A stretch of DNA of 64,000 bases from Stella humosa (GTDB lineage: Bacteria; Pseudomonadota; Alphaproteobacteria; ATCC43930; Allostellaceae), in NCBI RefSeq assembly GCF_006738645.1, contig NZ_AP019700.1, positions 4,880,001-4,944,000 of the forward strand. Reading direction: 5' to 3'. A model generated the notes under the pieces. That model was not told the origin of the DNA. It saw nothing but the letters and a program-made list of their open reading frames with translations, and ran no database searches. A program made the translations under genes and the position numbers. Of the stretch, positions 1 through 10,902 are shown in pieces (position 1 is the stretch's first letter; every line of letters starts with the position of its first letter).

Positions 1-1086
1 GGCGGCATAGCCGATGAAGGTGAAGAAGCTCGAGGCCGAGGTCGTCTCACCCACCTTGCCTGCCGGCGCGATGCGCGCGACCTCTGCCAGGTAGACGCCG
101 TTCCAGCTCACCGCCGAGATGCCGGTCAGGGCGGCCGCCGCCAGGATCGTCCACCAGGCCAGCGTGGGCGACAGGCTGGCGGTCAGCACCAGCGCGCCGC
201 AGCCGGTCGCCGCCAGCAGCATCAGCGTGCCGATCGCCGAGGTGCGGTCGGCCAGCCAGCCAGCCGAGATGCGGCCGACCGCGCCCGCCATCTGCAGGAA
301 GCCGTAGGCGGTGCCCGCCGCCGTCACCGCGAAGCCGAGGTCGGCCGTGAAATAGGGCACGTAGAACGAGAAGAGACTGCCCTGGGCGCAGGCCAGGCAG
401 AAGCCGGCATAGGTCAGGAGCGCCATGTTGCGCACCTGGCGGACGGTCCGGTAGGGCTGCACGAAGTTGGCGGGGTTGAAGATGTGGCCATAGGGCAGCC
501 GGCGCAGGCCGGCATCCGAGCGTCCTGCGTCGAACCGGCCGCGCAGCGGTTGGATCGACAGCACGATCGCCAGGGCGAGGCCAGCCGACAGCGCCAAGGC
601 CCAGCGCCAATCGAGCGCGACCGCCACCACGGGGATGACGAAGCCGCCGATCGCCTGGCCCACCGGCACGCCCGACTGCTTCAGCGAGAAGGCCAGCCCC
701 CGCCGCTCCGATGGGGTATGGCGGGCCAGGATGTCGCTGCTGGCCGGCGGCACCGGCCCATAGCCCAGGCCGAAAAAGATGGCCGATGCCAGCACCGCCG
801 GCCAGGTGCCGACGGTGACGAGCAGCATCGACACGGCCGCCAGCGACAGCCCGACCTGGAGCAGGCGCAAGGGGCCGAACTGCCCAAGCAGCGGCCCGCA
901 GCTCATCAGGTACCACATGCTGGCTACGGTCGAGAGCGCAGAGACATAGCCGATGCGCTCGACCGGGACGCCGGCCGCGGCCGTGATCATTGGCGCGCAT
1001 ACGGCGATCGCGCTCGACAGGAACGAGATCGAGACCTGGATCGAGAAGGTGGCGCCGAGCGCGCCCACCCAGCTGTTCTGGGACAT
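1..1086 (-). CDS. MFS transporter, C-terminus cut off by window edge
   Basis: The reading frame stays open from an ATG at 1086 to the first base of the window (362 codons), so this is the N-terminal part of a longer gene. The start reads MSQNSWVGALGATFSIQVS. The protein is a chain of hydrophobic helices with MFS features: a GPLLGQFGPLRL loop between helices 2 and 3, a cytoplasmic RHTPSERRGLAFSLKQSG stretch typical of the central repeat, and a second-half AGWLADRTS loop. It would act as a secondary carrier in the inner membrane. It follows the GDPD gene in the same direction after 57 bases containing a hairpin, so it may be only partly co-transcribed. The substrate is unknown; the context (phosphodiester hydrolases) makes an organophosphate or its released alcohol possible, which is inference. 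Confidence 0.85.
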   Translation of the reverse strand, partial: MSQNSWVGALGATFSIQVSISFLSSAIAVCAPMITAAAGVPVERIGYVSALSTVASMWYLMSCGPLLGQFGPLRLLQVGLSLAAVSMLLVTVGTWPAVLASAIFFGLGYGPVPPASSDILARHTPSERRGLAFSLKQSGVPVGQAIGGFVIPVVAVALDWRWALALSAGLALAIVLSIQPLRGRFDAGRSDAGLRRLPYGHIFNPANFVQPYRTVRQVRNMALLTYAGFCLACAQGSLFSFYVPYFTADLGFAVTAAGTAYGFLQMAGAVGRISAGWLADRTSAIGTLMLLAATGCGALVLTASLSPTLAWWTILAAAALTGISAVSWNGVYLAEVARIAPAGKVGETTSASSFFTFIGYAA

Positions 1087-1143: not shown

Positions 1144-1890
1144 CTAGCGCAACGAATCGCGGATCGCCAGCGCCCGGTCGGGCCGGTCGGTGGTGAAGAC
1201 GTCGACCTCCAGCGCGAACATGCGGCGGATGTCCTCCTCCTCGTTCACGGCGAAGCCGCCGATGCCGAGCCCGGCGTCGCGCGCGGCCTTTACCACGTCG
1301 GCCGTCAGCATGGTGCGATGGACCGACAGGGCCGGCACGCCATGCAGCCTGGCGGTGGCAATCGCGCCGGCGATGCCGACATCGGTCATCACATAGTTCG
1401 ACAGGATCCAGATCGTGCCCTTGGGATCGACATGGCGGCGCAGTGCCACCAGCGTCTCGACCTGGAAGCTGGTGACCGTCGTGTCGGCCAGCGCGCCCTC
1501 GGCCTTCAGCACGGCCGCCACCATGGCCGGCGTCTGCGGGTACGGGCGGCGGTCGTGATCCGGCTTGATCTCCAGCCGCAGCTTGACCGGCGTGCCGCGG
1601 AAGATGCCGACGACATCCTCCAGCGCCAGCATGCGCTCGCCGTCCGTGCCCTTCAGCGTGATCTGCTGCAGCTCGGCCCAGCTCTTCGCGCCGATCGGGC
1701 CGGTGCCGTCCGACGTGCGTTCCAGGACCGGGTCGTGGAACACCGCCAGGCGGCCGTCGGTCGTCGGGTGCACGTCGAACTCGACCTGCTCGACCGCCAG
1801 CTTCGCGGTGTTGCGAAAGGCGGTCGGGCTGTTCTCGGGCCATACCAGCGCGCCGCCGCGGTGCGACGCGATCTCGGTCTTGATGGTCAT
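1144..1890 (-). CDS. Glycerophosphodiester phosphodiesterase
   Basis: This 248-residue protein is a GDPD-family enzyme, hydrolysing glycerophosphodiesters to sn-glycerol 3-phosphate and an alcohol. It has a TIM-barrel fold. The signature is intact: H10-R11 followed by PEN at 18-20, metal-binding E37 and D39 in EFDVH, H52-D53 in VFHD, and the RLEIKPD strand. There is no signal peptide, so it acts in the cytoplasm on imported substrate. The reading frame extends to 1938, but the family starts at MTIKTEIASHRGG; the ATG at 1890 clears the upstream permease stop by 19 bases, so it is preferred. As the last enzyme gene behind a full ABC transporter and a phosphonate monoester hydrolase, it fits import and cleavage of phosphodiesters. 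It resembles ugpQ in function, but the transporter beside it is peptide-type rather than Ugp-type. Confidence 0.93.
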   Translation of the reverse strand: MTIKTEIASHRGGALVWPENSPTAFRNTAKLAVEQVEFDVHPTTDGRLAVFHDPVLERTSDGTGPIGAKSWAELQQITLKGTDGERMLALEDVVGIFRGTPVKLRLEIKPDHDRRPYPQTPAMVAAVLKAEGALADTTVTSFQVETLVALRRHVDPKGTIWILSNYVMTDVGIAGAIATARLHGVPALSVHRTMLTADVVKAARDAGLGIGGFAVNEEEDIRRMFALEVDVFTTDRPDRALAIRDSLR

Positions 1891-1909
1891 GTCGGTCCTG
1901 GTGCCAGCT

Positions 1910-2851
1910 TCACTTGAGGGTGGGGTCGAGGCGGTCACGCAGCCAGTCGCCGACGATGCTGATCGACAGCGTCGTCAGGATGATGACGATGCTGGGGGCC
2001 AGCATGATCCAGGGCGCCCGCGTGATGTATTCGCGCCCGTAGCCGACCATGTTGCCGAGCGAGGTGAGCGGCGGCTGCACGCCCAGGCCCAGGAACGACA
2101 GGCCGGATTCGAGCAGGATCGTCTCGGGGAAGGCCAGCGTCATGCTGACGATCAGGGTGGACGCGATGTTGGGCAGGATGTGGCGGCCATAGATGCGCCA
2201 GGCGGGCGCCCCCAGTTGCCGCACCGCGCCGGCATAGCCCTGCTCGTTGGCGGAGATCGCTAGCCCGCGCGAGATGCGGGCGTAGCGCTCCCAGCCATGG
2301 AAGCCCATCAGGCAGATGAAGAGGATGAGCGAGTTGCCGAAGAAGGCCAGCACGGCGAGCGCGATGATGAGGAAGGGCATCGACGCCTGGAAGTCGATCA
2401 TCATCAGCACGATGTCCTCGACCCAGCCGCGGAAATGCGCGGCCAGGATGCCGAGGAAGGTGCCGAGTGCTGCCGCGATCAGGGTGCCGAAGAAGGCGAT
2501 CAGCAGGCTCATGCGGATGGAGTAGAGAAGCCGCGACAGCACGTCCCGGCCCAGCTCGTCGGTGCCCAGCAGGTGGCGCACGTCGCCGCCCCACATCACC
2601 GGCGGCGACAGGCGGGCGCGCAGGTCCATCGCGGTATAGGCGTAGCCGGCCAGCAGTTCGACGAAGGTGGCGATGACCAGCATGGCCACGATCCAGCCCA
2701 GCGCCAGCAGCACCGAGGGCGGCCATGCCTCGAAGAAGCGCGCCACGCGGCCGCGCGGCGCCCGCTTGGCGGACACCTCAGCCGGCGCCTGGTTGCGTTC
2801 GCGGGTGACGGCGTCTTCGTCCGGCCCGCGGTTGTCGGTCACGATCGCCAT
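1910..2851 (-). CDS. ABC transporter permease, DppC/OppC type
   Basis: This 313-residue inner-membrane permease belongs to the BPD_transp_1 family. A polar N-terminus of about 40 residues with an OppC-type pre-helix region precedes the first helix (SVLLALGWIVAMLVIATF). A periplasmic segment with GTDELGRDVLSRLLYS follows, the standard DppC hallmark. The EAA loop is seen as ANEQGYAGAVRQLGAPAWRI near residues 205-225. It pairs with the DppB-type permease whose stop lies only 3 bases upstream. The complex would move small organic solutes delivered by one of the two binding proteins encoded earlier in the operon. Substrate specificity cannot be read from the permease. Confidence 0.93.
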   Translation of the reverse strand: MAIVTDNRGPDEDAVTRERNQAPAEVSAKRAPRGRVARFFEAWPPSVLLALGWIVAMLVIATFVELLAGYAYTAMDLRARLSPPVMWGGDVRHLLGTDELGRDVLSRLLYSIRMSLLIAFFGTLIAAALGTFLGILAAHFRGWVEDIVLMMIDFQASMPFLIIALAVLAFFGNSLILFICLMGFHGWERYARISRGLAISANEQGYAGAVRQLGAPAWRIYGRHILPNIASTLIVSMTLAFPETILLESGLSFLGLGVQPPLTSLGNMVGYGREYITRAPWIMLAPSIVIILTTLSISIVGDWLRDRLDPTLK

Positions 2852-2854
2852 GGC

Positions 2855-3790
2855 TCACCCCGCTCCGGCGACGCGGCGCGTACGCAGCCGCGGATCGATC
2901 CAACCATAGAGCATGTCCACGGTCAGGTTGGCACACACCATCGTGGCGGCGACGAACAGCAGGATCGTCTGCACCACCGCCAGGTCACGGTTGGCGACCG
3001 CGATGACCAGCAGCCGCCCGACGCCGGGCCAACTGAAGACGCTTTCCACCACCACCGCGCCCGCCACCAGGCTGCCGACCATGAAGCCGACGATGGTGAC
3101 GGTCGGGATGGCGGCATTTGGCAGCGCGTGGTCGATGATGACGCGTCGCCAGGGCAGGCCCTTGGCGGATGCCGTGCGGATGTAGGGCTGGCCCAGCACC
3201 TCCAGCATGGCGCTGCGGGTGAACCGGGCCAGCACGGCCGCACCAGCCGTGCCCAGCGTGATGACCGGCAGGATGCCGTGGACCCAGCTATCCTGGCCAC
3301 CGGACGGCAGCCAGCCGAGATTGACCGAGAACAGCAGCACCAGCAGCAGGCCCAGCACGAAGCTCGGCACCGTGAAGCCCGCGACCGAGAACAGCATGGT
3401 CAGGCGGTCGGCCAGCTTGTTGCGGTGGAGCGCGGCATAGATGCCGGCCGGGATGCCGATGCCGATCTTGAGGATGAGGGCCGGGATGGTGAGCGCCAGG
3501 GTGGCGGGCACGCGCTCCAGCACCAGTTCCAGGGCCGGGCGGCCGTCGCGCATGGAGCGGCCGAGGTTGCCCTCGGCGATGGCCGCGAAATAGTGGAAGT
3601 ACTGTTCCCAGACCGGGCGGTCGAGGCCCCAGGACTTGCGGAACGCCTCGATCGCCTCGGGCGGGGCGTCCGGCGACAGGATCAGCAGGGCCGGGTCGCC
3701 CGACAGGCGAAGGATGATGAAAGCGAAGGTGACGACGAAGCAGATGGTGAGCAGCGCCCGCACCAGCCGGGTCGAGAGATAGCGGAGCAT
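2855..3790 (-). CDS. ABC transporter permease, DppB/OppB type
   Basis: This 311-residue protein is the first permease of the transporter. It starts MLRYLSTRLVRALLTICFVV, the usual DppB N-terminus, then has the LRLSGDPALLILSPDAP periplasmic segment and an EAA-type loop (IRTASAKGLPWRRVIIDHAL) near residues 205-225. An in-frame upstream start at 3835 would overlap the ATPase gene and add a basic tail absent from the family, so the ATG at 3790, 10 bases past the ATPase stop, is chosen. It forms a heterodimer with the DppC-type protein that follows. Confidence 0.93.
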   Translation of the reverse strand: MLRYLSTRLVRALLTICFVVTFAFIILRLSGDPALLILSPDAPPEAIEAFRKSWGLDRPVWEQYFHYFAAIAEGNLGRSMRDGRPALELVLERVPATLALTIPALILKIGIGIPAGIYAALHRNKLADRLTMLFSVAGFTVPSFVLGLLLVLLFSVNLGWLPSGGQDSWVHGILPVITLGTAGAAVLARFTRSAMLEVLGQPYIRTASAKGLPWRRVIIDHALPNAAIPTVTIVGFMVGSLVAGAVVVESVFSWPGVGRLLVIAVANRDLAVVQTILLFVAATMVCANLTVDMLYGWIDPRLRTRRVAGAG

Positions 3791-3800
3791 GGGCGCTCTC

Positions 3801-4829
3801 CTATGCCGCAATCCGAGGCGAATCCGCCTCGCCATGGGCGACGTGGCAGGCGACGAGGCGGCCGTTGGGCAGCGGCTTCAGGACGGGCGTGTCGACCAGG
3901 CAGCGGGCGGTCGCCGCCGGGCAGCGCGGATGGAAGGCACAGCCGGCCGGGCGGTCGACCGGGTTCGGCGGATCCCCCTTGAGGATGAGGCGCGGCCGGC
4001 GCCGGGCGGCCGCCGCCACCGGGATGGCCGACACCAGGGCCTGGGTATAGGGGTGCGCCGGGTCGATCAGTAGCTGGTCGGGGTCGCCCTGCTCGACGAT
4101 GCGGCCCAGATACATGACCGCCACTTCGTGGCAGACCTGCCGCACGACCTTGAGGTCGTGGCTGATGAAGAGGAACGCGAGGTCGAACTTGGCCTGGAGG
4201 TCGAGCAGCAGGTTGATGACCTGCGCCTGGATCGACACGTCCAGGGCCGAGATCGGCTCGTCGCAGACCAGCAGCGACGGCTCCAGGATGAGGGCGCGCG
4301 CCAGCACGATGCGCTGGCGCTGCCCGCCCGACAGTTCGTGCGGGTAGCGGGCGAAGAAGGACGAGCCCAGGCCCACGGCATCCAGCAGCTCCAGCGCCCG
4401 GCTGCGCCGGTCGGCGCCGGCGCCGATGCCATGGATCTGCAGGGGCTCCATCACCTGGACGCCCACCGGGATGCGGCGGTCGAGCGCGCCCAGCGGGTCC
4501 TGGAAGACCATCTGCATGCGCCGGCGCATGCGCCGCCAGGCGGCGGTGCCCGGGGCCGGCACCGCCTCGCCCTCGAAGCGCACGGTGCCGCCGGTCGGCG
4601 TCAGCATGCCCAGCACGAGGCGCGCGGTGGTAGTCTTGCCGCAGCCGGATTCGCCGACCAGCCCCAGCGTGCGGCCGGGGCGGAGGTCGAAGGAGACGCC
4701 GTCGACGGCGTGCAGCGTGGCCGGCTTGCCAAACCAGCCGCCGGCGCGACGGACCTGGAAGCTGCGCGCGAGGTCGCGGACTTGGAGCAGCGGGGGGCCC
4801 TGGAGCAACGGAGAGGTTGGCTGGTTCAT
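3801..4829 (-). CDS. ABC transporter ATP-binding protein, DppF/OppF type
   Basis: This 342-residue ATPase energises the peptide-type transporter. Visible motifs are Walker A GESGCGKTT (about residues 60-68), signature [15 protein letters not shown], Walker B LLVCDEPISALD and the H-loop FISHDLKVV. The C-terminal oligopeptide-transporter extension has GCAFHPRCPAAT with the cysteine cluster that binds an iron-sulfur centre in some members. Its start overlaps the stop of the DppD-type gene in an ATGA, so the two ATPases are translationally coupled and probably form a heterodimer. Confidence 0.93.
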   Translation of the reverse strand: MNQPTSPLLQGPPLLQVRDLARSFQVRRAGGWFGKPATLHAVDGVSFDLRPGRTLGLVGESGCGKTTTARLVLGMLTPTGGTVRFEGEAVPAPGTAAWRRMRRRMQMVFQDPLGALDRRIPVGVQVMEPLQIHGIGAGADRRSRALELLDAVGLGSSFFARYPHELSGGQRQRIVLARALILEPSLLVCDEPISALDVSIQAQVINLLLDLQAKFDLAFLFISHDLKVVRQVCHEVAVMYLGRIVEQGDPDQLLIDPAHPYTQALVSAIPVAAAARRRPRLILKGDPPNPVDRPAGCAFHPRCPAATARCLVDTPVLKPLPNGRLVACHVAHGEADSPRIAA

Positions 4830-5800
4830 GCTGCCACCGCAGTCTGGACGCGGATACAGGCCGCGCGATGGTCGGTGCCGACATGCACGAGCGGCGGCAC
4901 GCCGGCCGTGCAGGCGGCAATCGCCTGCGGGCAGCGCGGCGCGAAGGCGCAGCCGGGCGGCAGGCGCGACGGTTCCGGCACGGTGCCGGGAATGGCGACC
5001 AGCCGCCGGCGCGGCCCGTCGAGATCGGGCAGGGCCGCCAGCAGGCCGCTGGTATAGGGATGGCGCGGCGACGCGAACAGCTCGGCCGTCGGCGCCTCCT
5101 CGACGATGCGGCCGGCATACATGACGGCGATGCGGTCGCTGTTCTCGGCGACGACGCCGAGGTCGTGGCTAATCAGCACCATCGACATGCCGCCGTCGCG
5201 CCGCAGCTCGCGCAGCAGGTCGAGGATCTGCGCCTGGATGGTGGCGTCGAGCGCGGTCGTCGGCTCGTCGGCCACCAGCATGTCGGGCTCGCCCGCCAGG
5301 GCCATGGCGATCATGACGCGCTGGTTGGTGCCGCCCGAAAGCTGGTGAGGATAGTCGTCCAGCCGCCGCGCGGCATCGGCGATGCCGACCCGCTCCAGCA
5401 GGCGCTTGGACTCCGCCTTGGCCGCCGCCCCTTCCAGGCCGCGATGCAGCCGGAGCGCCTCGCCGATCTGGCGGCCGATGCGGTGCACCGGGTTCAGCGC
5501 GCTGGCGGGATCCTGGAAGATCATCGCCACGCGCCGCCCGCGCACCGCCTCCAGCACGGCTGGCGGGCCGCCCAGCAGCGACTGGCCGGCCAGTTGGACC
5601 GAGCCGCCGACATGGGCGCGCGGCCCCAGCAGGCCGAGGGCGGCCAGCCAAGTCACGCTCTTGCCGGAACCCGATTCCCCGACCAGCCCGATCGCCTGTC
5701 CCTTGCCGATGGTCAGGTCGACCCCGTGCAGGACGCGCACGACCCGGGTGCCGAGGTCGAAATCGACCGTCAGCCCCCGGATCGACACCAGCGTTTCCAT
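4826..5800 (-). CDS. ABC transporter ATP-binding protein, DppD/OppD type
   Basis: This 324-residue ATPase is the partner of the DppF-type protein. It has Walker A GESGSGKS near residue 40, Walker [13 protein letters not shown], the H-loop LISHDLGVV, and the C-terminal [11 protein letters not shown] cysteine cluster. The signature loop reads [15 protein letters not shown], where most relatives have M-R or Q-R after LSGG; the change is conservative in position but unusual. It begins 7 bases after the stop of the second binding-protein gene. Confidence 0.92.
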
Positions 5801-5807
5801 GAAGGCT

Positions 5808-7454
5808 TCAGCCCCGCGTCAGCTTGAAGTTGCGGGCACGGAAGTCCATGGCGAAGGACGGCGCCGGCTTCCAGGCGATGTCCTTGCGCTTGGCGGTGAA
5901 GACGGCCGTCTGGTGCAGCACCGTGTAGGCCGGGTCTTCCCGCTCGCAGATCTCCAGCATGCGACGGAACATCTGCTTGCGCTTGGGCCGGTCGGTCGAG
6001 GTTTCCAGTTCGACCGAGAGCTTGTTCATCTCGTCGTTGGTCCACTCGCCGATCTGCTGCTGCTGGCCCTTGGGGCCATGCTGGTTGACGATGGACGAGA
6101 CCGGGTCGTTGAAGGGCGCGCTGTTCGACCAGTCGCGCACGCCGCGCGGGCTGTTGCGGTCGAAGATCTGGCTCCAGTTTTCCTTCATCTGGATCTCGAC
6201 GTTGATGCCGACGGCGCGCCACATCTCGCTCAGCACCTGGGCCGTCGAGTTCTGGCCCGCATAGTAGTTGTTCAGCACGCGGTACGGGATGACCCCGCCC
6301 TTGTAGCCGGCCTCGCGCAGCAGCTTCTTGGCCAGGTCCGGATTGTAGGCCGGCACCGACCAGTCGCCGTGGAACATGTCACCGTAGAATTCCCACTGCA
6401 GGCCCTTGGGCACGCGCGTGCGGCCTGCCCACAGCGCTTCGACGATGAGCTGCCGGTCGATGGCATGGCACATGGCCAGGCGCACGCGCGGGTCCTTCAG
6501 CTCCGGATGGGCCTTGTCGAAGCAGATGATGCGATGGTTGGTGATGAGGCCGCCGGCCACTTCGTAGCGCGGATTGCGCTCGATCTCGACGATCTGGTCG
6601 GGCGGGATGTCGCAGGCGAAGTCGTACTGGCCGGACAGCAGGCCGTTGATGCGGCTGGCGGCCTCGGGCACCACCACCAGGCGGATCTGCTTCACCGGCG
6701 GCCGGTCGCCCCAGTAGTCGTCGAAGGCGGTCAGGGTCAGCGAAGTGTCGGGCCGGAACTCGGTCACCTTGTAGGGACCGGTGCCGACGGGCGCACGCGC
6801 CCACTCGAGCCAGCTCTTCGCCTCGTTGAAGGCACGGCGCGAGATGATCTGCGAGCCACCGCGGGCAATGCGGCCCTCCAGCGTCACGTCTGGCACCTTG
6901 TTGACGAAGCGCACGGTGTACTTGTCGACCGCCTCGATGCGCTCCAGCGCCGGCCACAGGCGCTTGGCGACCGCGGGCACCTCGGGCGGCAGGTCCTTGG
7001 TGTCGCCGGGAACGACGCTGGTGAACAGCTTCTGCTCGGGCGCGCCGGCCTTGCCGAACATGCGCTCCGGGCCGAAGCTGAAGACCACGTCGTCGGCCGT
7101 CACCTCGTCGCCATTGTGGAACTTGGCGCCCTGGCGCAGCTTCAGCTCGACCGTGCGGTCGTCCAGCCGCTTCCATTCCGTGGCCAGGCCCGGAATCGAT
7201 TCAAGATCCTTCTGCAGGTCCTGCTCGATCAGCGATTCGAAGATGCTGGTCATGATGCGGGTGCCTACGTTCGACTGCTCGCGCAGCGGCTCCAGCGTGT
7301 TGGCGTTGACGATCTGCTGGACGGCGACCGTGATCGACGGGCGATTGTCGGCCTGGGCGGCGGCGATGCGCGGCAGCAGGCCGGTGGCGCCGCCCGCCAG
7401 CGCGCCGGCGGCGACGCCGGCCTTGAGGACGGCGCGTCGGGTAAATCGGGTCAT
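5808..7454 (-). CDS. Solute-binding protein family 5, second copy (Tat signal)
   Basis: This 548-residue periplasmic binding protein belongs to the SBP_bac_5 (DppA/OppA) family. The N-terminus MTRFTRRAVLKAGVAAGALAG has a twin-arginine signal, so it is exported folded. Family landmarks include the ESLIEQDLQ segment, KFHNGDEVTADDVVFSF and VGTGPYKVTEF. It is close to its upstream neighbour along its whole length, sharing long stretches such as RKDIAWK and VSSIVNQHG/LSSLVNQHG, so the pair arose by tandem duplication. A strong ribosome site (GGAGGGG) precedes the ATG. One permease/ATPase set follows, so both proteins probably feed the same channel with different ligands. Confidence 0.92.
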   Translation of the reverse strand: MTRFTRRAVLKAGVAAGALAGGATGLLPRIAAAQADNRPSITVAVQQIVNANTLEPLREQSNVGTRIMTSIFESLIEQDLQKDLESIPGLATEWKRLDDRTVELKLRQGAKFHNGDEVTADDVVFSFGPERMFGKAGAPEQKLFTSVVPGDTKDLPPEVPAVAKRLWPALERIEAVDKYTVRFVNKVPDVTLEGRIARGGSQIISRRAFNEAKSWLEWARAPVGTGPYKVTEFRPDTSLTLTAFDDYWGDRPPVKQIRLVVVPEAASRINGLLSGQYDFACDIPPDQIVEIERNPRYEVAGGLITNHRIICFDKAHPELKDPRVRLAMCHAIDRQLIVEALWAGRTRVPKGLQWEFYGDMFHGDWSVPAYNPDLAKKLLREAGYKGGVIPYRVLNNYYAGQNSTAQVLSEMWRAVGINVEIQMKENWSQIFDRNSPRGVRDWSNSAPFNDPVSSIVNQHGPKGQQQQIGEWTNDEMNKLSVELETSTDRPKRKQMFRRMLEICEREDPAYTVLHQTAVFTAKRKDIAWKPAPSFAMDFRARNFKLTRG

Positions 7455-7470
7455 GTCGGGTCCCCTCCCC

Positions 7471-9120
7471 TTAGATCTTGTTCATCTTGAAATTATGCGA
7501 GCGGAAGTCCATCGCAAAGGATGGAGCGGCCTTCCACGCAATATCCTTGCGCTTGGCCGTGAAGATCGCCGTCTGGTGCAGCACCGTGTAGGCGGGATCG
7601 TCACGCTCGCAGATTTCCAGCATGCGGCGGAACATCTGCCGCCGCTTGGCGCGGTCGGTCGACGTCTCAAGCTCGACCGAGAGCTTGTTCATCTCGTCGT
7701 TTGACCACTCGCCGATCTGCTGCTGCTGGCCCTTGGGTCCATGCTGGTTGACCAGCGAGGACAGCGGATCGTTGTAGAGGGCGCTGTTCGACCAGTCGCG
7801 CACGCCGCGCGGCGAGCCACGGTCGAAGACCTGGGAGAAGTTCTCCTTCATCTGGATTTCGACGTTGAGGCCGACCTGGCGCCACATCTCGGTCAGGATC
7901 TGCCCGGTCGCGGTCTGGTTCGGGTAGTAGTTGTTCAGCAGGCGATAGGGGATGACGCCACCCTTGTAGCCCGCCTCGCGCAGCAGCTTCTTGGCCTCGG
8001 CCGGGTCGTAGGCCGGGACGTTCCAGTCGTCGATGAACATCTGGCCGTAGAATTCCCACTGCAGGCCCTTGGGCACCCGCGTCCGGCCGCCCCACAGCGA
8101 ATCGACGATGAGCTGGCGGTCGATCGCATGGGTGAAGGCGCGGCGCACCCGCGGGTCGCGCAGTTCCGGGTGGTTCTTGTCGAAGCAGGTCAGGCGATGG
8201 TTGGTGACGAGCCCGCCCGAGACTTCGAAGCGCGGGTTCTTCGTCACCTCCGGCACCTGGTCGGGCGGGATGTCGGTGGCGAAGTCGTACTGGCCCGAGA
8301 AGAGGCCGTTGATGCGGCTGGCCACTTCCGGCACGACGACGAAGCGGAGCTGCTTGATCGGCGGGCGGCCGCCCCAGTACTCGTCGAACGCCTCCAGCGT
8401 CAGCGACACGTCGGGGCGGAACTCGACGATCCGGTAGGGACCCGTCCCGATGGGCTTGCGCGCCCATTCCAGCCAGTTCTTCGATTCCATGAAGGCGCGG
8501 CGCGAGATGATCTGCCCGGCCGCCCGGCCGATGCGGCCTTCCAGCGTCACGTCCGGCTGCTTGTTGACGAAGCGGACCGTGTACTTGTCGACCGCCTCGA
8601 CGCGGTCCAGCGACGGCCAGAAGCGGCGGGCGACCGCCATCACTTCCGGCGGCAGGTCCTTGGTATCGCCGGCGACGACGCCGGTGAACAGCTTCTGGTC
8701 GGCCGCCGCCCCCGGCTTGCCGAACATCCGCTCCGGCCCGAAGGTGAAGGCCACGTCCTCGGCCGTCATCTCGTCGCCATTGTGGAACTTCACGCCGCGG
8801 CGCAGCGTCAGCTCGACCGTGCGGTCGTCGATCCGCCGCCACTCCGTCGCCAAACCCGGAATATCCTCCAAGTTGCGCTGGAGGTCCTGCTCGATCAGCG
8901 ATTCCAGGAAGCAGGGCGTGATGCGATAGCCGACGTTCGACTGCTCGCGCAGCGGCTCCAGCGTGTTGGAATTCACCACCTGCTGGACCGCCACCGTGAT
9001 CGACGGCCGCGTGTCCGCCTGGGCGAAGGCCATCCGACCGACCGCCAATTGACCGCCGGCGGCAAGCGCGCCGCCGGCAACGCCTGCTTTCAGCAGGCCG
9101 CGACGAGTGAACCCGGTCAT
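7471..9120 (-). CDS. Solute-binding protein family 5, first copy (Tat signal)
   Basis: This 549-residue periplasmic binding protein is the paralogue of the following gene. It begins MTGFTRRGLLKAGVAGGALA with a Tat motif and an alanine-rich h-region, and mature protein likely starts near QADTRPSITVAV. Family landmarks are KFHNGDEMTAEDVAFTF and IGTGPYRIVEF. An ATG two codons upstream (9126) sits directly against the GGGAG ribosome site, whereas the ATG at 9120 has an 8-base spacer, so 9120 is preferred. The gene follows the phosphonate monoester hydrolase by 42 bases. Its ligand is unknown; the operon suggests phosphodiesters or phosphonate esters rather than peptides. Confidence 0.92.
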   Translation of the reverse strand: MTGFTRRGLLKAGVAGGALAAGGQLAVGRMAFAQADTRPSITVAVQQVVNSNTLEPLREQSNVGYRITPCFLESLIEQDLQRNLEDIPGLATEWRRIDDRTVELTLRRGVKFHNGDEMTAEDVAFTFGPERMFGKPGAAADQKLFTGVVAGDTKDLPPEVMAVARRFWPSLDRVEAVDKYTVRFVNKQPDVTLEGRIGRAAGQIISRRAFMESKNWLEWARKPIGTGPYRIVEFRPDVSLTLEAFDEYWGGRPPIKQLRFVVVPEVASRINGLFSGQYDFATDIPPDQVPEVTKNPRFEVSGGLVTNHRLTCFDKNHPELRDPRVRRAFTHAIDRQLIVDSLWGGRTRVPKGLQWEFYGQMFIDDWNVPAYDPAEAKKLLREAGYKGGVIPYRLLNNYYPNQTATGQILTEMWRQVGLNVEIQMKENFSQVFDRGSPRGVRDWSNSALYNDPLSSLVNQHGPKGQQQQIGEWSNDEMNKLSVELETSTDRAKRRQMFRRMLEICERDDPAYTVLHQTAIFTAKRKDIAWKAAPSFAMDFRSHNFKMNKI

Positions 9121-9162
9121 CGTCATCTCTCCCTGTTCTGCTGTCCTTGGGTCTTCCGCCGC

Positions 9163-10704
9163 TCAGCCGTGAGGCCGCTTCTCGAGCCCCTTGGGCGTGG
9201 CGCGGTAGTGGGTCAGCGTCCGCTCGGCATAACGCATGCGCCAGTTCAGCATCTTGCGCGCGTACTCGCCCATGCGGACGGCGTACTCCGGATCCTCCGC
9301 CCGGTTCTCGAACTGGCCGGGATCGCGCTTCAGGTCGAAGAAGAGCGGCGGCAGCGCCGGGAAGTGGACGTACTTGTAGTCATGGTCCTGCACGACCGAG
9401 AGCGAGCACTCGTCCATGTGCAGGCCGAGCGCGGTTTCCGGCTGCGAGTAGAAGATGTCGCGGAAATCGAACTCGTAGTGGACCTCGGTGCGCCAGTCGG
9501 CCGGGCGACCGGAATGGGCGAAGGGCAGCAGGCTGCGGCCGTCGCACTGGCGCGGGATCGGCGCCCCCAGCCATTCCATGATGGTGGGGAAGGTGTCGAT
9601 CGTCTCGCTGAAGTCGTCGACGATGGTGCCGCGCGTGCCGTCCGCCTCGGGCGATGGGTCGCGCAGGATCATCGGGATGCGGAAGCTCTCGTCGAAATAG
9701 CCGATCTTGCCCAGCATGTGATGGTCGCCGAGCTGCTCGCCATGGTCGCAGGTGAAGATGATCAGCGTGTCATCCCACTGCCCGGTCTCCTCCAGGAAGG
9801 CGAAGACGCGGCCCAGATGCTCGTCCACCTCGCTCATCAGGCCGCGATAGGCGGCCCGCATCTGCCGCACCTCCGCGTCCGTCATGTCCTTGGCGAGGCC
9901 CTTGGCGTTCTGGAAGAAGCCACCCTTGGCGATGTGCTTGACGTAGAAATCGAGCAGCGGGTGCTGGGCGGCCTCGGCCTCGGGCGTGGCGGCGCGCACC
10001 GGGGATGGCATGTCGGCCGCGTCGTACATCGCATTGTAGGGTGCCGGCGCTATGAACTGCGGGTGCGGCCGGTAGTAGCCCAGATGGAGGAACCAGTTCC
10101 CGTCGCGCCGGCCCTTCAGGTAGGTGAGGCCGCGGTCGGTGAAGTAGGACGTGTCGCTGAACTCGGCCGGGATGCGCGACGGGCGGGCGGTCGGGCCGGG
10201 CACGGCGTCGTCGCCCTCGGGCATCCAGATGTCGGTGCGATTCTTCGGCGCCTCGAAGCCCTTGCCGGCGACCCAGCCGAAATAGCCGTCCATCGCCGGC
10301 TCGAAGGGGCCGACCGAGCGGAACCCGTCCATCAGGTCGCCCAAGATCTTGAAGCGCGGGTCGTCGGCCGTGGTGGTGCGTGGGTCGGGCGTCGTGGTGG
10401 TGTAACCCACCAGCGCCGGATCGTAGCCGGCACGCCGCAGGGCGCGGCCCAGCGTGTCGTGGCGATCATCCAGCGGGATAGTGTTCTGCACCGCCCGGTG
10501 GTTCATCTGATAGAGGCCGGTCAGCAGCGAGGCTCGCGCCGGGCCGCAGGGGGCGGTCTGGGTGAAGTGATTGCGGAAGGTCACCCCTTCTCGACACAGC
10601 CGATCCAGGTTCGGCGTGTGCAGGTTGTCCATTCCAAGGCATGCGAGATGATCGCCGCGCCACTGATCGACCACGATCAGCAGCACGTTCTTCGGTCGGC
10701 CCAT
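9163..10704 (-). CDS. Phosphonate monoester hydrolase / phosphodiesterase (formylglycine sulfatase superfamily)
   Basis: This 513-residue enzyme belongs to the alkaline-phosphatase/sulfatase superfamily. It has D13 of the LLIVVDQW metal site, the C-x-P-x-R formylglycine motif at 53-57 (CGPAR) and the second metal site in CDHGEQLGDHHMLGK. Remembered similarity to the Rhizobium and Burkholderia phosphonate monoester hydrolases is strong over the full length (MNHRAVQNT, TTTTPDPRTT, DGRSLLPF, HYEFDFRD), and those enzymes cleave phosphonate monoesters and phosphate diesters promiscuously. There is no signal peptide, so it is cytoplasmic. The frame is open to 10809, but homology begins at MGRPKNVLLIVV, giving the ATG at 10704. 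It leads the operon, directly behind the PHO-box-like site. Formylglycine maturation would need a separate enzyme not seen here. Confidence 0.92.
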   Translation of the reverse strand: MGRPKNVLLIVVDQWRGDHLACLGMDNLHTPNLDRLCREGVTFRNHFTQTAPCGPARASLLTGLYQMNHRAVQNTIPLDDRHDTLGRALRRAGYDPALVGYTTTTPDPRTTTADDPRFKILGDLMDGFRSVGPFEPAMDGYFGWVAGKGFEAPKNRTDIWMPEGDDAVPGPTARPSRIPAEFSDTSYFTDRGLTYLKGRRDGNWFLHLGYYRPHPQFIAPAPYNAMYDAADMPSPVRAATPEAEAAQHPLLDFYVKHIAKGGFFQNAKGLAKDMTDAEVRQMRAAYRGLMSEVDEHLGRVFAFLEETGQWDDTLIIFTCDHGEQLGDHHMLGKIGYFDESFRIPMILRDPSPEADGTRGTIVDDFSETIDTFPTIMEWLGAPIPRQCDGRSLLPFAHSGRPADWRTEVHYEFDFRDIFYSQPETALGLHMDECSLSVVQDHDYKYVHFPALPPLFFDLKRDPGQFENRAEDPEYAVRMGEYARKMLNWRMRYAERTLTHYRATPKGLEKRPHG

Positions 10705-10766
10705 TGGTAGTCGCCTCTTCCCAGCTACGGCGTGAGCGCCTCTTAACAGCGTCAGCCTACAGATTC

Positions 10767-10784
10767 TTGACGGATTTATGACAG
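10767..10784 (-). promoter_or_regulatory. PHO box (PhoB-type operator) candidate
   Basis: On the minus strand the 18 bases read CTGTCATAAATCCGTCAA, two CTGTCA-like heptamers spaced by the A/T tetramer of the PhoB consensus. It lies 63-80 bases before the phosphonate monoester hydrolase ATG and points into that operon. The rest of 10705-10902 shows no gene; it has an AT-richer stretch around the box and a run of seven T at about 10810. Confidence 0.7.
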
Positions 10785-10902
10785 TGAAATTTCGTTTGGC
10801 ATGCTGCACTTTTTTTCAGCAGCAGCCGGCCGCACGCCCCTCGCGTCGAGGTGGGAAGACGAGCAATCCCAGCGTGCAGGCCGGCCAGTGCCGCAGAGCC
10901 GC

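Follow-up and report, generated by a model that had tools for sequence, protein, structure and literature searches.

The acc operon of the Agrobacterium Ti plasmid (accR-accABCDEFG) encodes an ATP-binding cassette (ABC) transporter of the peptide type and a GDPD-like hydrolase, AccF. By means of this operon an intact phosphodiester is imported and then cut inside the cell by the phosphodiesterase AccF (PMC4526662), and its activation under phosphate limitation has been described (PMC4086400, citing Kim 2008). The receptor AccA recognizes agrocinopine A, a sucrose-arabinose phosphodiester (PMC4526662). The enzyme PehA, also called RlPMH, has served widely as a model of enzyme promiscuity and belongs to a family studied mainly with laboratory substrates; its relatives cleave phosphonate monoesters and phosphodiesters, and PehA/RlPMH itself was assayed with model substrates (PMC5488252). 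A natural role for it is touched on in a discussion of phosphonate release from marine polysaccharide (PMC5649143). Here we analyzed a 64,000-nucleotide stretch of the Stella humosa genome (contig NZ_AP019700.1, positions 4,880,001 to 4,944,000; hereafter the window), in which an eight-gene run on the minus strand (10704-1144) lies behind an 18-bp PHO-box-like site (10767-10784). With a probability of about 0.78, our best reading is that this locus encodes a PHO-linked, AccA-like phosphodiester importer working together with PehA and a GDPD-family hydrolase.

The run starts with pehA (9163..10704), followed by two binding-protein genes, sbp1 (7471..9126) and sbp2 (5808..7454), the genes for an OppD-type (4826..5800) and an OppF-type ATPase (3801..4829), those for a DppB/OppB-type permease (2855..3835, permease B) and a DppC/OppC-type permease (1910..2851, permease C), the last four recognized by family profile matches, and a gene for a GDPD-family phosphodiesterase (1144..1938). 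All of them lie on the minus strand with intergenic gaps between -35 and +36 nt, so that a single transcript is likely. By family matches, this content of a hydrolase, two binding proteins, a peptide-type ABC transporter and a GDPD is as the first-pass annotation had described it. An alternative, longer start of pehA exists (GTG at 10809), and the PehA profile match begins near the ATG at 10704 (residue 4). The source genome is a single contig of 5.83 Mb, and three further genomes of the same genus carry the locus as well, cut off in one of them where the contig stops inside the receptor genes.

Both binding proteins belong to the SBP_bac_5 family, are 78% identical to each other, and show a twin-arginine-like leader when read by eye. 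Their best solved match is AccA (4ra1), with 282 bits for SBP1 and 288 for SBP2, around 150 bits ahead of the best non-AccA structures (129 and 137 bits, respectively), and a fold search with the AlphaFold model of SBP1 (mean predicted local distance difference test score, pLDDT, of 86.9) returned AccA at ranks 1-11. In AccA, Asn54, Asn284, Ser419 and Glu510 hold the pyranose OH1, and Asn54, Ser419, Tyr375 and Tyr376 hold the phosphate (PMC4526662). The equivalent positions, mapped exclusively through the Protein Data Bank (PDB) alignments to AccA, were surveyed in 62 intact cassette receptors from 42 sources with more than 50% identity, after leaving out seven matches (four whose matched part contains a stop, in three of these near the end, and three partial ones). 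Asn54, Asn284, Tyr375, Tyr376 and Ser419, five residues of the phosphate and hinge side, were each kept in 62 of 62. As a control, paralogues from the same genome were used, namely the 30 with loci among its 70 SBP_bac_5 matches, and these residues were present in 0, 1, 1, 20 and 7 of the 30, respectively, with no paralogue having all five and with the distant alignment being uncertain, mostly near Asn54. By contrast, the sugar-selecting Glu510 and Glu434 and the gate Trp178 were retained in 0 of 62 receptors: the Glu510 position is Phe in 56 and the Glu434 position Gln in 47. The receptors of the window have F, Q and A/G, respectively, at these three positions. As judged from these alignments, the phosphate grip of AccA is kept and its sugar grip is not. 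It is thus well supported, as far as sequence comparison goes, that the receptors import intact phosphodiesters, agrocinopine itself probably not being the ligand.

The number of receptor genes varies among related operons. Tandem AccA-type receptors, in 2 to 6 copies per operon, were seen in L118, L071, L084 and ten more of 41 cassettes, and in the tandem copies that were printed the phosphate residues are constant and those of the head-group pocket vary. A second receptor at the end of the cassette, 39-41% identical to those of the window, appears in L051 (17497), L052 (17239) and L067 (7992). It carries the gate Trp178 of AccA, and its specificity may thus resemble that of AccA more closely. 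The 70 SBP_bac_5 matches mentioned above come from a source genome of 5.8 Mb.

The product of pehA passes the curated equivalog cut-off for PehA, a phosphonate monoester hydrolase-phosphodiesterase of the formylglycine type (NF045661, 954 bits against 900), reaches 804 bits to 2w8s and 802 bits to 2vqr, and shares 65% identity with its counterpart in Rhizobium johnstonii 3841. It matches all of the 11 active-site positions checked (the formylglycine Cys in CxPxR, the metal ligands and Tyr105/Thr107), the residue numbers other than Y105/T107 being those that we assume. Across 84 PehA proteins 10 of these positions are invariant, and the remaining one, T107, is occupied by T in 82 proteins and by S in 2. 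The Tyr105/Thr107 pair is the signature of T-type phosphonate monoester hydrolases (PMC5488252). A formylglycine enzyme would be expected to go with an FGE-sulfatase domain, and the genome encodes this domain at two loci. The GDPD (PF03009; nearest solved structure 3ks5) scores 103.9 bits against the PRK09454 cut-off of 264 bits, a model which we take to be that of UgpQ, and among its nearest matches on plasmids no AccF was singled out. Judged by eye, neither hydrolase shows a signal peptide. Together with the AccA-type receptors, this supports the import of intact phosphodiesters by a peptide-type transporter and their hydrolysis inside the cell, as had been proposed in the first-pass annotation. 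Two more relatives of PehA are encoded in the genome (1295642-1297144 and 5016516-5017979), neither of which, at 594 and 337 bits, reaches the PehA cut-off.

A PHO box consists of two 7-nt direct repeats with a four-base spacer, the repeat being CTGTCAT in E. coli (PMC4415409). Such a site had been annotated on the minus strand before the gene run, and it was found there, at 10767..10784 (CTGTCATAAATCCGTCAA), as two CTGTCAT-like 7-mers 11 bp apart with 2 mismatches of 14, 62 bases from the ATG at 10704; CTGTCATAAATCCGTCAA has no other match in the window even when up to 3 mismatches to it are allowed. Counting CTGTCAT-N4-CTGTCAT over the 64-kb window gave 2 sites at up to 3 mismatches against 3.09 expected, and 1 site at up to 2 mismatches against 0.18 expected, with 11 of 60 simulated windows reaching one. 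Since the match to the consensus is near the chance level, a single site is weak evidence by itself, and the box was not accepted on the strength of the consensus search alone.

The recurrence of the site was analyzed in 83 pehA loci with 250 bp upstream, 44 with an AccA-type receptor nearby and 39 without, setting aside L049 and L102 (duplicates of L040 and L044) and L077 (short upstream region), and counting L074 among the 39, in which transporter genes adjoin and the receptor lies off the contig. Sites with up to 3 mismatches were found in 15 of the 44 cassettes against 2 of the 39 loci without an AccA-type receptor in view, and with up to 4 mismatches in 25 of 44 against 4 of 39. The background in random 250-mers from the same loci was 46 of 8600 and 355 of 8600, respectively. 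All but one of the 25 cassette sites sit 40-95 nt before the protein match, a distance affected by the fact that this match may start a few codons after the true gene start. None of 200 permuted 7-mers (of 419) reached 25 cassettes, the best one reaching 20 and having GTCAT in common with the motif, and the reversed motif was found in 0 and 5 of the 44 cassettes at the two thresholds. Moreover, a matrix built from 21 sites outside Stella ranked the site of the window first among 127,966 positions. As comparable sites recur at a comparable position in related operons of several genera, the site is more than a chance match.

The genome encodes PhoB (346.9 bits against a curated cut-off of 296.2), so that both a PhoB gene and a PHO box at the promoter are present, and the PHO control proposed in the first-pass annotation finds support in the recurring box and in this gene. 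Genome-wide, the motif has 140 matches at up to 3 mismatches against 40 for the reversed control. Eight of the best places were opened as loci, two of them overlapping, giving seven places. These include PHO-like sites before ugpB and before a phnC-type gene, both over their curated cut-offs, and one next to a divergent gene that by eye is metallophosphoesterase-like and for which no NCBIfam match at 1e-20 was found; at least two of the seven fall within long reading frames and look fortuitous. Another of the seven lies upstream of a TorF-family porin gene (L004, genome position 2061111), whose product is a possible outer-membrane partner under phosphate control.

The association of the hydrolases with this type of importer was followed from both sides. 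Among the best 80 of 561 pehA loci, taken from genome contigs, 41 adjoin a cassette of receptor and transporter genes, 29 do not, and 10 are too short to judge. From the receptor side, the best 20 plasmid records all have pehA adjoining; one such arrangement, pehA followed by the same receptor type and transporter, is found on plasmid pRL9 of R. johnstonii 3841, whose PehA, going by the name, we take for pRL90232, the 2vqr protein. Nine further cassettes, hand-picked and thus non-random among the next-best receptor matches, all have a GDPD after permease C and none has PehA; their best PHO-like sites have 4 to 6 mismatches. Of the 35 pehA-linked cassettes whose sequence extends 1 kb or more beyond permease C, 4 contain a GDPD, and two of these, L065 and L070, have the order receptor, transporter, GDPD, pehA. 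PehA and GDPD thus look like alternatives, kept together in Stella and a few others.

Some loci at the margins of this distribution have other neighbors. Two of the 29 pehA loci without cassette were viewed (L060 and L055), and in both pehA lies by genes for a protocatechuate-type dioxygenase (PF00775) and a 2-hydroxyacid dehydrogenase, L055 having also a PF00206 lyase, and neither has a good PHO-like site. This suggests that PehA serves another purpose in the Reyranella/Enhydrobacter group. A divergent gene for a "sugar-binding transcriptional regulator" lies near the PehA-less GDPD cassettes L167, L172, L046 and L047 and is lacking at L048, hinting at a possible induction of the former four by phosphosugars in place of PHO control.

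In the mechanism that we propose, PhoB would bind at 10767-10784 during phosphate starvation and turn on the operon. The two periplasmic receptors would then grip small phosphodiesters by their phosphate, using the positions that are Asn, Asn, Tyr-Tyr and Ser in AccA, with a head-group pocket different from that of AccA, and the peptide-type transporter would take the diester in whole. In the cytoplasm, PehA, with its formylglycine nucleophile, and GDPD may cut different diesters, or different sides of them, in such a way that an alcohol and a phosphomonoester would be produced and used as a source of phosphorus, and perhaps of carbon.

Several observations weigh against this reading. PehA must have other uses too, as 29 of the 80 pehA loci lack the cassette, and the GDPD gene is not specific to this importer, its best plasmid match being in a sugar-type ABC operon. 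The ligand of AccA cannot be carried over to these receptors, since its sugar-binding residues are not kept. Regarding the PHO-like site, the best one has 5 to 7 mismatches in 19 of the 44 cassettes, among others in L050, with the closest PehA outside Stella (7 mismatches), and the plasmid cassette of R. johnstonii 3841 has a best site with 4; two sites with 3 mismatches are also found upstream of pehA genes without a receptor in view. Finally, the cassette loci are related, so that the counts are not independent.

The other explanations differ in how they deal with these data. That the operon is mainly a phosphonate-ester pathway, in which PehA releases a phosphonate for use by carbon-phosphorus (C-P) lyase, would agree with the cleavage of phosphonate monoesters by PehA relatives (PMC5488252), and with a paper that considers such an enzyme with regard to phosphonates esterified to marine polysaccharide and reports it from seven of the eight annotated Sulfitobacter genomes, among them every one that has C-P lyase (PMC5649143). 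The genome has phnJ, and the phnC-type gene has a PHO-like site. However, phnJ is about 2 Mb away and the operon contains no phosphonate-processing gene, its terminal GDPD points to phosphate diesters, and in each of nine other cassettes this kind of transporter is served by a GDPD with PehA absent, all of which makes a phosphonate pathway unlikely. The import of agrocinopine-like pyranose-2-phosphate diesters exactly as by AccA, in agreement with AccA being the closest solved relative and with the conserved phosphate contacts, is quite improbable, and an agrocinopine system was rejected, given the loss of Glu510, Glu434 and Trp178 in all 62 receptors; in addition, neither an AccR-type regulator nor an AccG-type phosphatase is among the three neighboring genes looked at.

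A fortuitous PHO-like site, with the operon under another control, would fit the chance-level consensus match and the 19 of 44 related cassettes without a good site, but we give it little credence in view of the recurrence of sequence and position across genera in a single orientation (0 and 5 cassettes for the reversed motif against 15 and 25). Least credible of all is an importer for peptides, nickel or other substrates to which the hydrolases adjoin by accident, as a peptide/nickel type is seen in the permeases and ATPases but not in the receptors, and a diester hydrolase adjoins the cassettes reached through the receptor in every case (PehA in 20 of 20, GDPD in 9 of 9).

Downstream of the run, 57 nt after GDPD, a gene for a membrane protein of the major facilitator superfamily (MFS) type by appearance (407 aa in full) is cut at the edge of the window (1..1086, minus strand), and for the part within the window no NCBIfam match at E 1e-20 was found. 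The same gene follows GDPD in both Stella loci that extend beyond this point (L039 and L040), and it is possibly the last gene of the operon. The GC-rich hairpin between both genes has a fold z-score of -1.0, with 34 of 200 shuffles equally good, so no terminator is claimed. On the upstream side lie hydro-lyase and TctC genes.

That pehA repeatedly lies next to an AccA-type importer, with a PHO box recurring upstream, offers a different and testable natural role for this enzyme. It also suggests that the uptake of agrocinopine in crown gall belongs to a wider phosphorus scavenging by import of whole diesters. The chances appear evenly balanced for a broader proposal, in which PehA would be the physiological phosphodiesterase of a widespread family of PHO-controlled AccA-like importers with new head-group specificity, replacing the AccF-type GDPD in many lineages, with tandem receptors (up to six) widening the range of diesters and the crown-gall acc operon as a specialized member.

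Compared with known systems, the phnCDE phosphonate importer has in common with the Stella locus a PHO-linked uptake of organophosphorus compounds (PMC4415409), but its receptor and transporter are of another type and a phnC-type gene exists elsewhere in the Stella genome. The ugpBAECQ system also couples PHO control and phosphodiester use with a GDPD (PMC4415409), whereas its receptor is of the UgpB type and the Stella genome has a separate ugpB with a PHO-like site; a ugp system was rejected for this locus on these grounds, given its SBP_bac_5 receptors and the low PRK09454 score of its GDPD. In pRL9 of R. johnstonii 3841, the 65% identical RlPMH/PehA is encoded directly before an AccA-type receptor and a D-F-B-C transporter, but there is one receptor, the cassette has no GDPD, and the best PHO-like site has 4 mismatches. 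The first-pass annotation had known of no characterized example of this gene set, a statement that has to be amended, as the acc operon comes close with its importer, cytoplasmic phosphodiesterase and phosphate response (PMC4086400). Given this precedent, this kind of system is already known: both have an AccA-type receptor, an ABC importer, cleavage of the intact diester in the cytoplasm and a response to phosphate limitation, inferred in the case of Stella. Among the open-licence papers searched, as far as their text was available, none was found that joins PehA to an AccA-type importer. The Stella locus differs from acc in the addition of PehA, in its two receptors, in the replaced sugar-selecting residues, and in having no AccR-like or AccG-like gene among the immediate neighbors looked at, and what looks new here is that PehA joins or replaces the GDPD-type hydrolase beside an AccA-type importer.

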